From Burkholderiales bacterium (GTDB taxonomy: Bacteria; Pseudomonadota; Gammaproteobacteria; Burkholderiales; Burkholderiaceae_C), in contig CANGHK010000037.1 of NCBI GenBank assembly GCA_947453625.1, forward strand, positions 1 to 51,203: DNA of 51,203 nucleotides, given 5' to 3'. Of the stretch, positions 13,741 through 47,103 are shown in pieces. The position numbers and the translations under genes were made by a program. The notes under the pieces were generated by a model. The model was not told where the DNA came from, ran no database searches, and saw nothing but the letters and a program-made list of their open reading frames with translations. Position 1 is the stretch's first letter, and the number at the start of each line of letters is the position of its first letter.

Positions 13741-14163
13741 GGAAACAGACGGCCAGGGGTTGGGGTCTTTCGGAATTGCTTCGTGACGCTAACAGTCAGC
13801 ATACCAAAGCGTGCCGCTCGATGATTCAGGCTTTTTACCAATATTGCGTGGCTTTCGCTTTTTTGATGTGCCGAGACCTGGCCGATGGCACGGCGATGCG
13901 GTCCCGGACGGGTCTCGAACTGGCAGCCCGCGCGGCGCGAGACGCGCCACCCCTTCGCAGGCGCTCGTCCGTGCGCAGGCACGGCCGCGCGTCCGGCTCA
14001 GGCTTGCAGCCCGCGCGGCGCGAGACGCGCCGCCCCTTCGCAGGCGCGCGTCCGTGCGCAGGCACGGCCGCGCGTCCGGCTCAGGCTTGCAGCCCGCGCG
14101 GCGCGAGACGCGCCGCCCCTTCGCAGGCGCTCGTCCGTGCGCAGGCACGGCCGCGCGTCCGGC
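13741..14163. other. 423-bp intergenic region between marR and the DUF429 gene
   Basis: No gene is seen. The first part (13741-13923) is A+T-richer and contains the marR promoter region, with T-runs around 13830 and 13860. The rest is three copies of an 83-bp G+C-rich repeat. Open frames crossing it on both strands only translate the repeat in shifting frames, since 83 is not divisible by 3. They are not credible proteins. Confidence 0.8.
13784..13803 (-). promoter_or_regulatory. Candidate marR promoter and operator
   Basis: On the minus strand TATGCT (13803-13798) could be a -10 box. The interrupted palindrome TGAC-N7-GTCA (13784-13798) overlaps the predicted transcription start 44 bp before the marR ATG. 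That position suits an autorepressor. The half-sites are only 4 bp, so this is a weak call. Confidence 0.3.
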
Positions 14164-14169
14164 TCAGGC
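13924..14169. repeat. 83-bp tandem repeat, three copies, hairpin-rich
   Basis: Copies start at 13924, 14007 and 14090. The last is 80 bp long. They differ at only two positions. Each unit holds two small hairpins: GGCGCG-AGA-CGCGCC, and CCGTGC-GCAG-GCACGG. The final copy ends over the stop codon of the DUF429 gene, so each unit carries, on the minus strand, the GCCTGAGCC that forms that gene's last codon and stop. Near-identity of the copies implies recent expansion. Confidence 0.95.
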
Positions 14170-32896: not shown

Positions 32897-35800
32897 ATGT
32901 TCAAGAAACTGCTGATCGCCAATCGCGGCGAGATCGCCATCCGGATCATCCGCGCCGCCCAGGACCTGGGCATCGCCACCGTCTCGGTCTACGCCCGCGA
33001 CGACACCGACGCGCTGCACCGCACGCTGGCCGACGAGGCGGTGGCGCTGGACGCCAGCGGCCCCGCCGCCTACCTCGACATCGCCGCGCTGGTCGCAGTC
33101 GCGCGCGGGCAGGCTTGCGAGGCGGTGCACCCGGGTTACGGTTTCCTCAGCGAACGCGCCGACTTCGCCCAGGCCTGCGCCGACGCCGGCCTGGTCTTCA
33201 TCGGCCCGACGCCGGCCCAGCTCGCGCTGTTCGGCGACAAGGCCAGCGCCCGGCACCGGGCGGCCGAGCATGGCGTGCCGCTGCTGCCGGGCACCGCCGC
33301 GGCCAGCCTGGCGCAGATCGAGGCCTTCTTCGCCGCGCAGCGGGCGCTAGACCCGGGCTGCGGCGTGATGCTCAAGGCGGTGGCGGGCGGTGGCGGGCGC
33401 GGCATGCGCGCGGTGCACGACCCGGCCGCGCTGGCCGAGGCCTACGCGCGCTGCTCCGCCGAGGCACTGGCCGCGTTCGGCGTCGGGGCGGTCTATGCCG
33501 AGAAGCTGATCGCGCAGGCGCGCCATATCGAGGTGCAGGTGATAGGCGACGGCCGCCAGGTGATGGCGCTGGGCGAGCGTGAATGCACGCTGCAACGCCG
33601 CTTCCAGAAACTGGTCGAGATCGCGCCCAGCCCCAACCTGCACCCCGCGCTGCGCGAGCAGCTGATCCAGGCTGCGCTGACGCTGGCGCGCAGCACCGCC
33701 TACCAGGGCCTGGGCACCTTCGAGTTTCTGGTCGATGACGGCTCAGCCGAGTTGCCTTTCGTCTTCATCGAAGCCAACCCGCGGCTGCAGGTCGAGCACA
33801 CGGTGACCGAGGAGGTCACCGGCGTCGACCTGGTCCAGGCGCAGATCGCCATCGCCGCCGGCCGCACGCTGGCCGCGCTGGGGCTGGATCCGGCCCACCC
33901 ACCGCCGGCGCGCGGCTTTGCGGTGCAGTGGCGCATCAATGCCGAGACCCTGGACGACCAGGGCCAGGCGCGGCCGGCGTCGGGCTTGATCACGCGCTGC
34001 GATCTGCCCGGCGGACACGGCGTTCGCGTCGACAGCCATGCCCGCAGCGGGCTGGCGCCGTCGCCGCATTACGACAGCCTGCTGGCCAAGGTGATCGTCA
34101 GCCACCGCAGCGGCCATTTCGACGAGGTGTTGCGGCGCTCGCAGCGCGCGCTGGCCGAATGCCGGATCGAGGGCCTGGCCACCAACCTGCCGCTGCTGCG
34201 GCTGCTGGCCGGCCATGAGGCGCTGCACCACCACCGCGTCCACACGCGCTGGCTGGAGGCCGAATGGCCGGCGCTGCAGGCCGGGCTGGCCGGACACAGC
34301 GACGCGCTGGCGCTGCTGCCGCCGGCCCACGCCACGGCGGCCACCGAGGAGAGCGCGCTGCCGGCGGGGCAGTTCGCGCTGCGCGCGGGCATGGCCGGCC
34401 GCGTCGTGCAGTTCAACGCGGCGGTGGGCGACACGCTGGCCGCCGGCAGCGAGGCCCTGGTGCTCGAGGCGATGAAGATGCAGCATGGGCTGAACTGCCC
34501 GGGCGCGGCCCGCGTCGTCGCACTCGGCGTGGCCGCGGGCGATTTCGTCGTCGAAGGCCAGTTGCTGATGCGGCTGGAAGCCGTGAACGAAGCCCAGGCC
34601 GAGGCCGCCGAGGCCGCGACGCACGACCTCGACCATGTGCGCCCCGACCTGCAGCGGGTGCGCGACCGCGACGCCTTGCTGCTCGACGCGGCCCGCCCGG
34701 CGGCGGTCGCGCGGCGCCACGCCGCGGGCGGCCGCACCGCGCGCCAGAACGTCGACGACTTGTGCGATGCGGGCTCGTTCATCGAGTACGGCGGCTACGC
34801 GATCGCTGCGCAGTCGCGCCGCAGAACGCTGGACGACCTGGTCCGCAACACCCCGGCCGACGGCATGGTCACCGGCATAGGCGCGGTCAACGGCGGCGAC
34901 TTCGGCCCCGAGCACAGCCGCTGCGCGGTGATGGCCTATGACTACACCGTGCTGGCCGGCACCCAGGGCTGGCGCAACCACCACAAGAAGGACAGGCTGC
35001 TGGGCCTGGCGCACCAGTGGAAGTTGCCCACCGTGCTGTTCGCCGAAGGCGGTGGCGGCCGGCCGGGCGATGTCGACATGCCCATCGTCGCGGGCCTGAA
35101 CAACCACACCTTCAGCCAGTTCGCCGCGCTGTCGGGCAAAGTGCCGGTGGTGGGCGTGGTGCATGGCCGCTGCTTTGCCGGCAATGCCGCGCTGCTGGGC
35201 TGTGCCGACGTGATCATTGCCACCCTTAGCGCCAACATCGGCCTGGGCGGCCCGGCGATGATCGAGGGCGGCGGGCTGGGGGTGTTCCGCCCCGAGGAGA
35301 TCGGCCCGGCGGCCGACCTGCACCACAACGGCGTGATCGACATCCTGGTCGACGACGAGGCCGCCGCCGTGGCGGCGACCAAACAGTACCTGGGCTTCTT
35401 CCAGGGCCGCCATGCCCACTGGACCGCGGGCGACGCGCGCGCGCTGCGCCACCTGATCCCGGAGAACCGCCAGCGTGTCTACGACATGCGCGCGGTGCTG
35501 ACGGCGCTGGCCGACAGCGGATCGGTGCTGGAGTTGCGCGCGGGATTCGGCACCGGCATGGTCACCGCGCTGGCCCGCATCGAGGGCCGGCCGGTCGGCA
35601 TCTTCGCCAACAACCCGCACCACCTGGGCGGCGCGATCGACCCCGACGGCGCCGACAAGGCCGCCCGCTTCATGCAGTTGTGCAACGCCCATGGCCTGCC
35701 CCTGCTGAGCCTGTGCGACACACCGGGCTTCATGGTCGGGCCCGAGGTCGAGCGCCAGGCGCAGGTGCGCCATGCCTGCCGGCTGTTCGTCACCGCCGCC

Positions 35801-43175: not shown

Positions 43176-45194
43176 TCAGTCTTCCAGCCGCAGCAGTTCA
43201 GCGCCTTCGGCCACCGGATCGCCCACCGCGTACAGCAGCTCGGCCACCACGCCGTCGCGCGGCGCGTGCAGCGTGTGCTCCATCTTCATCGCCTCCATCA
43301 CCGCCAGCGCCTGGCCCTGGCTGACCGCGTTGCCCGCCTGGACCAGGAAGGCGATCACCTTGCCCGGCATCGGCGCGGTCAGGCTGCCGCCCTCGGCAGC
43401 GCCTTCGCCGGCATGGGCGATGGCGTCGATCTGGCGCAGCACGATGCTGGCCTCGGGTGCGAACACCGCCACCCGCTCGCCCTGGGAATAGACCGCCAGG
43501 CGCAGCCGGCGCTCGCCCAAGGTGGTGTCGTACTGCCCACCGCCGAGCGCGCGCGAGCTGATCGCCCAGCGCTGGACGCCTATCTGCAGTTCGCTGCGGG
43601 CCTGCGCCGACGGGCGATGCGGCCGTGCCAGCGCCACCGCGTGCACCACGCCGGCATGCTCGATGTCGAAATGCCGGCGCGCCCCGCCGTGCAGGCGCCA
43701 GCCGTCCAGGCGCGACCAGGGGTCGGCGCCTTCGAGTTCGGCCTCGTCGGCCAGCGTACGCGCCACCACGCCGGCGGCGGCGATCTCCAGCGCCAGCGGC
43801 GGCTGGCCCAGCAGCACCGCGCGCTCGCGCTCGATCAGCGCGGTGTCGAGGTCGGCGGTGGCGAACGCGGTGCTGGCAACCACCCGGCGCAGAAAGGCGA
43901 CGTTGGTGTGCAACCCGACGATGTGGGTGGCGGCCAGCGCCGCGTCCAGCCGCGCCAGGGCCTGGGCCCGGTTGTCGCCCCAGACGATCAGCTTGGCGAT
44001 CATCGGGTCGTAATGCGGGGTGATCGCATCGCCCTCGCGGACGCCGGCATCGACGCGCACCGGGCCGTCCGCGCTGGTGCGCTCGAAAGCCCGGTGCGGC
44101 GGCCAGCGCAGCGTGTCCATCGTCCCGGTGGCGGGCAGGAAACCGGCGTCCGGGTTCTCGGCGCAGATGCGGGCCTCGATCGCATGGCCTTGGATGCGCA
44201 ACTCATCCTGGCGCAGTGGCAAAGGCTGGCCGGCGGCCACGCGCAGTTGCCACTCGACCAGGTCGAGGCCGGTGATGGCCTCGGTCACCGGGTGCTCGAC
44301 CTGGAGCCTGGTGTTCATCTCCATGAAGTAGAAGCGCAGGTCACCATCGTCGACCTCCTCGGCGATGAACTCGACCGTGCCCGCGCCGACATAGCCCACC
44401 GCCAGCGCCGCCGCCACCGCGGCCGCGCCCATCTCGGCCCGGCGCTCGGCCGACATGCCAGGCGCCGGCGCTTCTTCCAGCACCTTCTGGTGGCGGCGCT
44501 GCACCGAGCAGTCGCGCTCGAACAAGTGGATGCAGCCGCCCAGGCTGTCACCAAAGACCTGGATCTCGATATGGCGCGGCCGCAGCACATAACGCTCGAC
44601 CAGCACATGGTCGTCACCGAAACTCGATTTCGCCTCGCGCTGGCAGGACGCCAGCGCGGCGGCGAAGTCTTGGTCTCTGTCGACGCGCCGCATGCCCTTG
44701 CCGCCACCACCGGCGCTGGCCTTGATCAGCACCGGGTAGCCGATTCGCGCCGCCTCGCGCGCCAGCAGCGCGGGGTCGTTGTCCACGCCGTGGTAGCCAG
44801 GCACCAGCGGCACGCCGGCTTTTTCCATCAAGGTCTTGGCGGCCGACTTGCTGCCCATCGCCGCGATCGCCTCGGCCGGCGGGCCGATGAAGACGACACC
44901 GGCCGCCGCGCAGGCGCGCGCGAAACCGGCGTTCTCGGACAGGAAGCCGTAGCCCGGGTGCACGGCCAGGGCGCCGGTGGCCAGCGCCACCTCGAGGATG
45001 CGGTCGGCGCGCAGGTAGCTGTCGCGCGGCGCCGGCCCGCCTATGCACACCGCTTCGTCGCAGGCCATCACATGGCGCGCGCCGGCATCGGCCTCGGAGT
45101 ACACCGCCACGGTGCGTATGCCCAAGCGGCGCGCGGTGGCGGCGACCCGGCAAGCGATCTCTCCACGATTGGCAATCAGAATTTTCTTGAACAT
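43176..45194 (-). CDS. mccA: Methylcrotonyl-CoA carboxylase, biotin-containing alpha subunit
   Basis: The 672-residue protein has biotin carboxylase (MFKKILIANRGEIACRVAAT, the ATP loop GGGGKGMR, FMEMNTRLQVEHPVTE), a middle linker domain, and a C-terminal biotinyl domain with EAMKM, Lys637, 35 residues before the end. The carboxyltransferase partner is encoded upstream on the same strand, which fits MCC of leucine breakdown (3-methylcrotonyl-CoA to 3-methylglutaconyl-CoA). The start codon lies in a 120-bp tandem repeat and in the loop of a 19-bp inverted repeat, so translation control is likely. ATG 45194 is certain from the conserved N terminus. Confidence 0.95.
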   Translation of the reverse strand: MFKKILIANRGEIACRVAATARRLGIRTVAVYSEADAGARHVMACDEAVCIGGPAPRDSYLRADRILEVALATGALAVHPGYGFLSENAGFARACAAAGVVFIGPPAEAIAAMGSKSAAKTLMEKAGVPLVPGYHGVDNDPALLAREAARIGYPVLIKASAGGGGKGMRRVDRDQDFAAALASCQREAKSSFGDDHVLVERYVLRPRHIEIQVFGDSLGGCIHLFERDCSVQRRHQKVLEEAPAPGMSAERRAEMGAAAVAAALAVGYVGAGTVEFIAEEVDDGDLRFYFMEMNTRLQVEHPVTEAITGLDLVEWQLRVAAGQPLPLRQDELRIQGHAIEARICAENPDAGFLPATGTMDTLRWPPHRAFERTSADGPVRVDAGVREGDAITPHYDPMIAKLIVWGDNRAQALARLDAALAATHIVGLHTNVAFLRRVVASTAFATADLDTALIERERAVLLGQPPLALEIAAAGVVARTLADEAELEGADPWSRLDGWRLHGGARRHFDIEHAGVVHAVALARPHRPSAQARSELQIGVQRWAISSRALGGGQYDTTLGERRLRLAVYSQGERVAVFAPEASIVLRQIDAIAHAGEGAAEGGSLTAPMPGKVIAFLVQAGNAVSQGQALAVMEAMKMEHTLHAPRDGVVAELLYAVGDPVAEGAELLRLED

Positions 45195-45224
45195 GGCCTA
45201 CCTCGATCGTGGAGAGATCGCCTG
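45151..45224 (-). promoter_or_regulatory. Inverted repeat looping out the mccA start codon
   Basis: The arms are 45151-45169 and 45206-45224, each 19 nt, with 18 identical complementary positions. In the mccA mRNA the odd pair is G-U, so all 19 can pair. The 36-nt loop holds GAGG and the ATG. The 3' arm falls in codons about 9-15 of mccA, so the upstream arm copies part of the coding sequence in reverse orientation. This could control initiation. Confidence 0.6.
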
Positions 45225-45314
45225 CTTGCGCTTCGCGCAACAGTCGCTTTGGCTGCGCCGCCCCGGGCTTCGCCCGCGGTCACCACGATGGGCCATCAGG
45301 ATCTTCTTGAACAT
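45198..45314 (-). CDS. Upstream ORF 2 of mccA, 38 codons
   Basis: ATG 45314 opens MFKKILMAHRGDRGRSPGRR and then a basic stretch ending ISPRSR, with TAG at 45200-45198. The stop is followed by GCC and the real mccA ATG, so a ribosome ending here could restart at once. The first six residues match MccA exactly. The frame is the same as mccA because the repeat is 40 codons long. It may be a regulatory leader rather than a functional peptide. Confidence 0.45.
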   Translation of the reverse strand: MFKKILMAHRGDRGRSPGRRSQSDCCAKRKQAISPRSR

Positions 45315-45317
45315 GGC

Positions 45318-45434
45318 CTACCTCGATCGTGGAGTGATCGCCTGCTTGCGCTGCGCGCAACAGTCGCTTTGGCTGCGCCGCCCCGGGATTCGCCCGCGGT
45401 CACCACGATGGGTCATCAGGATCTTCTTGAACAT
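45318..45434 (-). CDS. Upstream ORF 1 of mccA, 38 codons
   Basis: ATG 45434, 34 nt past the mccB stop and preceded by the same GAGG site, opens MFKKILMTHRGDRGRIPGRR and a tail ending ITPRSR, with TAG followed by GCC and the ATG of upstream ORF 2. It differs from ORF 2 at a few codons, all substitutions with no frame loss. Retention of the frame and stop in both copies may be selection or simply recent duplication. Confidence 0.45.
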   Translation of the reverse strand: MFKKILMTHRGDRGRIPGRRSQSDCCAQRKQAITPRSR

Positions 45435-45468
45435 GGGCTACCTCGATCTTGGGGAGTTGGCCTGCACA

Positions 45469-47103
<1,635 letters not shown>

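Follow-up and report, generated by a model that had tools for sequence, protein, structure and literature searches.

Translational attenuators of the ermC and cat type consist of a short leader open reading frame (ORF) with its own Shine-Dalgarno sequence, followed by a hairpin that limits the real start of the gene. The element that we describe here, which lies at the start of biotin-carboxylase genes in Burkholderiales, resembles them in its leader ORF and in a hairpin predicted to limit the real start, which leader translation would open, but its leader copies the gene's own start, ends at or over the real start and recurs across paralogues, and it has no known inducer. It is also similar to translationally coupled overlapping genes of the ATGA type, in which the upstream frame likewise stops on or next to the real start, with the difference that this upstream frame is a start-copy upstream ORF (uORF) inside an insertion with a co-varying arm. 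Like the REP/BIME palindromes and the RPE palindromic elements of Rickettsia, it is a short hairpin repeat that is sporadic and sometimes tandem; unlike them, it is located at gene starts, together with a duplicated start, and gives one to four model matches per matching genome in the family search. Last, mobile translational bypassing elements (byps) likewise contain hairpins and are inserted close to flanking codons that match, but the element differs from byps in its second Shine-Dalgarno sequence and start codon, so that no ribosome hop is needed.

The window, by which we mean the whole 51,203-nt stretch of DNA analyzed from a Burkholderiales bacterium, carries the element between mccB and mccA (Table 1). 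The initial annotation described there a 120-bp repeat, which is evident in the sequence, in self-comparison and in the tandem repeat search with TRF (period 120, 2.5 copies, 92% matches), with ATGs at 45434, 45314 and 45194 in one frame (120-nt spacing, minus strand) and two 38-codon upstream ORFs closing with TAG before the next ATG, both of which hold in the ORF listing. The interval proposed for it, 45181..45450, marks the repeat but is slightly short (repeat at 45163-45465), and the copied mccA start is indeed present, with a length of about 12 codons instead of six, reading MFKKIL(M)(T/A)HRGD versus MFKKILIANRGE. The two units are 93% alike. The arms of helix P3 form a 20-nt inverted repeat (95%), absent from the initial annotation, that spans the real mccA start and would place the Shine-Dalgarno sequence and start codon inside a 36-nt loop; the predicted energy needed to open this start is 16.3 kcal/mol with the leader free versus 7.4 kcal/mol with the arm occupied. 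An in-frame N-terminal extension of MccA is ruled out by the TAG stops of both uORFs, and the two tandem units would act as a two-step relay from mccB to mccA.

Table 1. Features of the mccB-mccA region, in positions of the window
Feature	Positions	Strand	Details or basis
mccA-type biotin-carboxylase subunit gene, 672 aa	43176..45194	-	Real start ATG 45194
mccB-type carboxyltransferase gene, upstream of mccA	45469..47103	-	
uORF 1, 38 codons, opens with the mccA start copy	45318..45434	-	TAG ends 3 nt before ATG 45314
uORF 2, 38 codons, second mccA start copy	45198..45314	-	TAG ends 3 nt before ATG 45194
Repeat unit 1, 120 bp	45315..45434	-	Repeat search
Repeat unit 2, 120 bp	45195..45314	-	Repeat search
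Hairpin P1, unit 2, CGGGC GAA GCCCG	45264..45276	-	Sequence and predicted fold
Mini-hairpin M, unit 2, GGC GCA GCC	45251..45259	-	Co-varies in relatives
Hairpin P2, unit 2, TTGCGC GAA GCGCAA	45226..45240	-	Predicted fold; co-varies in relatives
Helix P3, upstream arm, complementary to mccA codons ~9-15	45206..45225	-	
Helix P3, gene-side arm, within mccA	45150..45169	-	

Over the whole window, TRF returned nine further rows, one of them a comparable long array at 13923-14169. This array has three near-identical, hairpin-rich 83-bp units and starts near the stop codon of a minus-strand frame.

A search of the own genome with the repeat led to places on two other contigs, where, as in congeners, the same layout precedes other biotin-carboxylase genes. 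The common anatomy is an ATG with about 12 copied codons of the gene, a hairpin-bearing spacer of about 80 nt, an arm complementary to gene codons 10 to 15, a Shine-Dalgarno sequence and the second, real start, and five kinds of biotin-carboxylase gene are preceded by it. Of the five own-genome genes that encode a Biotin_carb_N domain, three (accC-type, pccA-like and mccA) have a start copy upstream, and none was seen before the C5 gene or the gene at window position 32897 (best upstream match, 20 and 22 of 36, respectively). Parsing of 114 loci gave 109 rows, of which three register duplicates and two tandem rows with spacing of >200 (L390 and L400) were dropped, leaving 104 elements that are related to one another, so that the counts below are not independent. 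L322, L323, L368, L371 and L382 gave no parsed row, with the element visible by eye, L384 repeats L189, and L036 and L043 are without the start copy or truncated by a contig end. When each of the 104 elements is assigned to the best matching of the five own-genome genes, 44 fall to mccA-type, 30 to pccA-like, 20 to accC-type and 8 to C5-type genes and 2 to the type at window position 32897. In most of 11 examples, the predicted fold contains P1, the GGC-GNA-GCC mini-hairpin M, P2 and the long P3 between the gene and the arm before the Shine-Dalgarno sequence; P3 was not formed in the single-sequence fold of the accC element of G018. The longest hairpin has a GNA triloop in 48 of the 104 spacers (GCA in 37, GAA in 6 and GTA in 5).

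To follow the distribution of the element, we used a model (R1) built from the spacer alone, which includes the arm mirroring carboxylase sequence. It had four confident matches in the own genome, all at carboxylase starts, as well as weaker ones, of which the four read (L063 to L066) look by eye like chance matches in coding sequence. Within the genus, 9 of 21 genomes (G000, G001, G006, G008, G009, G011, G013, G017 and G018) have matches of >33 bits, one of which, in G011, is at a non-carboxylase gene. The family search with the spacer model reached 80 of 399 genomes and 51 of 141 genera at an E value of 1e-5 or better. All 89 fetched loci are carboxylase starts (85 by pattern and 4 by reading), which is partly expected because the model carries the arm mirroring carboxylase sequence; five listed places (G252 C202, G252 C265, G379, G318 and G399) were left out of the fetch. 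The wider samples gave matches in 13 of 399 genomes for the order (10 outside the family; the loci read from these are carboxylase starts by eye) and in 4 of 398 for the phylum, one of them outside the order. In G424:C2 (2784864-2785175), G432:C1 (778192-778571) and G147:C12 (836526-837196), three close model matches each are apparently tandem units.

A start copy (at least 25 of 36 bases) was found in 6 of the best 80 of 588 named mccA loci, those of Paracidovorax citrulli, an Acidovorax MAG, a Burkholderiales MAG, Variovorax paradoxus 110B, "Candidatus Propionivibrio aalborgensis" and Azoarcus taiwanensis; start copies of V. paradoxus 110B and A. taiwanensis read MFKKILIANRGDQ... or MFEKILIANRGDQ.... 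Presence between relatives is sporadic. Many dispersed extragenic copies, as in REP/BIME elements, were not found: the four confident matches of the own genome all fall at carboxylase starts, for a model trained on carboxylase spacers, and a DNA search of six named genomes gave, among the matches listed, at most one strong place per genome (one each at E < 1e-6 in four of the six, and none below E 1e-3 in G063 and G065), next to many short, weak matches. A location of the element on plasmids was rejected: a distant search with the window produced matches covering about 14 to 16% of the query in the 20 of 22 records listed, roughly half of which lie under annotated carboxylase genes while no gene is listed for the others, and the same search with the V. 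paradoxus element had no match. In Rfam, window positions 44800 to 45900 had two matches, both far below the gathering score, and five named loci had none at the gathering score, so that no known RNA family was recognized in them. Our literature search, with most subscription papers outside its coverage, found no description of the element.

As in an attenuator, a leader ORF with a ribosome site stands before the gene, 103 of the 104 elements having both a start codon and an open frame. The start codon is at the aligned place in 98 and in frame 3 to 9 nt upstream in 5, and a Shine-Dalgarno-like motif precedes 54 of 103 start copies and 82 of 103 real starts, versus 9% of random 15-mers. In all 104 elements, the frame of the start copy runs without a stop up to 25 nt before the real start, compared with 71 on average and at most 84 when the spacers were base shuffled (200 shuffles). 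Openness alone is weak evidence, since the other two spacer frames are open in 74 and 96 of the 104 and GC-richness explains part of it. In 103 of the 104 elements, the stop lies from -22 to +19 nt relative to the real start, with +8 in 58, and the spacing equals 1 modulo 3 in 71 of 106 rows. Altogether, 102 of the 104 elements combine a start codon, an open frame and a stop near the real start. The two exceptions are L389 (G114:C29), where the start copy carries a frameshift, its ATG frame stopping at -51, and L364 (G320:C1), whose uORF continues in frame into its carboxylase gene. L389 is possibly a decayed relay, and one broken copy per 104 fits decay and leaves the argument unaltered; L364 possibly represents an N-terminal extension of the carboxylase.

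Differences between copy and gene are distributed as 57, 34 and 331 over codon positions 1, 2 and 3, and those between copies, in 82 related and thus non-independent pairs, as 67, 38 and 356. The spacer has no such codon-position bias and its peptide is not conserved. Because the third-position bias is found in the copy and not in the spacer, the start copy behaves as coding and the spacer as structured and simply open. Part of the bias could have originated before the insertion.

Pairing in the helices was scored across an alignment of references (49 of 50, L398 being left out). In M, P2 and P3, 94.3% of the cells are paired versus 86.9% when shuffled, with 114 double-change cells versus 30, and slid controls paired in <44%. 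In P3, two-sided changes occur at the third position of gene codons 10, 11 and 12, which indicates that the arm follows silent changes of the gene; of its 17 pairs, eight have one-sided changes only, and in three the sole departures are unpaired cells. The same arm can also form an alternative helix, O, with the 5' side of P2; helix O is likewise paired in most cells, although one of its pairs is often broken. Arm-gene duplexes reach -51.5 kcal/mol with the own gene versus -46.5 kcal/mol when swapped, 28% of the swapped ones being at least as strong. For 102 elements, opening the real start is predicted to cost a median of 15.7 kcal/mol when the leader is free and 7.1 kcal/mol when the arm is occupied, next to 9.3 kcal/mol for the empty-site model and 8.9 kcal/mol for the start copy. 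In 100 of these elements, the predicted cost of opening the real start is higher for a free leader than for an occupied arm, and in 85 it exceeds that of the start copy. Co-variation and predicted energies agree with a helix that would limit the real start, which, according to these models, would be buried unless the arm is occupied.

How the element arrived is best seen in Variovorax, where Variovorax beijingensis lacks it and V. paradoxus 110B has it, both with the same upstream sequence and first start. The extra DNA is placed after codon 12 of the native start, an empty site with a duplicated target as for transposon insertion, seen in this one pair. From this one clear pair, the start copy would be the native start; the leader is likewise duplicated in the Acidovorax and Azoarcus loci. 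The nearest relative of the spacer core is at the same paralogue in 68 of 104 elements (31 on average and at most 50 with shuffled labels) and at another paralogue in 36, some with 93 to 95% identity over the short core, a pattern that suggests inheritance together with the gene as well as transfer from one paralogue to another. We infer that the element is mobile.

In the mccA gap of the eight congeners read, where the initial annotation proposed to look for conservation of repeat and frame, the outcome speaks partly for and partly against it: the start copy is present with its frame in G001 and G009, and the element is absent in G005, G008, G011, G013 and G020. G006 retains the spacer and has its start copy deleted, the frame being kept by fusion of an upstream ORF that is continuous with the spacer frame and stops at -2, the same stop position as in G001; this locus serves as a natural test in favor of dependence on the upstream frame. 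The idea that the repeat takes the place of a hydratase gene proved mostly wrong, as one of the eight congeners readable at the mccB-mccA gap has such a gene (G009, by eye) and the other gaps hold other ORFs; in the own genome, 40 ECH_1 matches are listed, with methylglutaconyl-CoA hydratase not singled out among them.

Start duplications with similar hairpins were also found before other genes, with gene names assigned by eye. They precede murG in the own genome (three units), G008 (one) and G006 (at least two), a C25 gene of the own genome (two units), a ferredoxin gene (own C1) and an alpha-E domain gene (G011), and the start copies encode other peptides. In the five of these six non-carboxylase loci that were measured (the murG of G006 was left out), all eight uORFs are open, with ends from -12 to +10 nt relative to the next start. 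The arm-gene duplex is above shuffles at the ferredoxin gene and, by about 2 standard deviations, at the murG of G008, and no better than shuffles at the own murG, C25 and alpha-E genes. Arm occupancy has a predicted gain of 1.4 to 8.7 kcal/mol. An arm-gene helix is convincing only at the ferredoxin gene and, less so, at the murG of G008. A CGGCGMAGCC core is common to the murG, C25 and alpha-E cases, which were found by that pattern or by the spacer model, and was not seen in the ferredoxin spacer. The own-genome scan for start duplications covered about 0.84 of 5.18 Mb; scans of 400 kb each in G109 and G135 showed no clear non-carboxylase case. Together with those before accC-type and pccA-like genes, the elements before murG argue against a role specific to the balance of MccA and MccB.

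Other arrays were observed along the way. The G109 scan contained one 83-bp tandem repeat. At L131 (G003:C12, ~811250, minus strand), the last codons and stop of an RpoD-like gene (by eye) are duplicated in 100-bp units ending CGGCGAAGCC. In G000:C5, the end of a XerC/D-like recombinase gene (by eye) is duplicated around a multi-hairpin insert at 65130-65450 (L175), with similar hairpins at 59120-59420, and G000:C3 has a hairpin-rich 71-bp array of 3.4 copies at 57166-57405 (L158).

We consider it probable that the element is a structured insertion that has spread among carboxylase genes and makes the gene dependent on translation of the start-copy uORF. Ribosomes would load on the exposed start copy, and the ribosome translating the uORF through the spacer would melt the arm otherwise paired with the gene; left free, the arm-gene helix P3 would close the real start in a loop. 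The uORF ribosome would terminate at or over the real ATG and then reinitiate there. Termination-reinitiation coupling had already been suggested in the initial annotation, and comparison lends it good support, through the combination of signals kept in 102 of 104 elements and the predicted structure hiding the real start. The insert may move among biotin-carboxylase genes by recombination between them, proposed because their starts are alike, or by transposition, and it would persist because the relay keeps the gene expressed. We extend this only tentatively to a type of small mobile DNA whose insertion just within a gene start would duplicate that start and which would keep the host gene alive by ribosome relay, common at Burkholderiales biotin-carboxylase genes and also found before murG, ferredoxin and alpha-E domain genes in this genus.

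A regulated attenuator, in which the uORF senses a signal (for instance, isoleucine or leucine supply or the carboxylase product) by stalling and switches P3 versus helix O, seems rather unlikely. In its favor, P3 and O exclude each other, compete for one arm and are each paired in most cells, changes in the start copy fall mainly at third codon positions, and all 89 fetched family loci are at biotin-carboxylase genes, with a model carrying some carboxylase signal. Against it, the element comes and goes between relatives and stands before accC-type as well as mccA-type genes, the peptide encoded by the spacer lacks conservation, and in G006 an unrelated upstream ORF stands in for the start copy. 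That same G006 locus, without a start copy and with its frame kept, makes it very improbable that the MFKKILIANRG... peptide itself works as a decoy or nascent-chain signal for the carboxylase, as do the other peptides encoded at non-carboxylase genes, and the third-position bias that would favor such a peptide could reflect the ancestry of the copy. The conserved uORF frame and stop position, and an arm that tracks silent gene changes, speak against purely selfish or neutral structured DNA, a foldback element or template-switching product whose arms come from the insertion mechanism without any effect on expression; we regard this as unlikely, even with the GNA triloops, the tandem arrays, the gene-end duplications of similar look and the sporadic presence in its favor. 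As for a recent, meaningless duplication private to mccA, the likeness of the two window units would suggest it, but the same anatomy in 80 of 399 family genomes, in other families and in isolates such as V. paradoxus 110B and A. taiwanensis leaves it almost no credence. The congener loci and the family genomes rule out a local neutral repeat, and the element is not a private tandem repeat of mccA.

For annotation, the structured insertion with a ribosome relay that we favor carries a warning, as the first good start of such a gene may belong to the uORF. This reading can be tested directly in natural pairs with and without the element, such as the two Variovorax species. The element is a widespread cis element tied to central carboxylases of fatty-acid synthesis and of leucine and propionyl-CoA catabolism, and it points to translational coupling as a way in which a gene could tolerate an insertion in its coding start.
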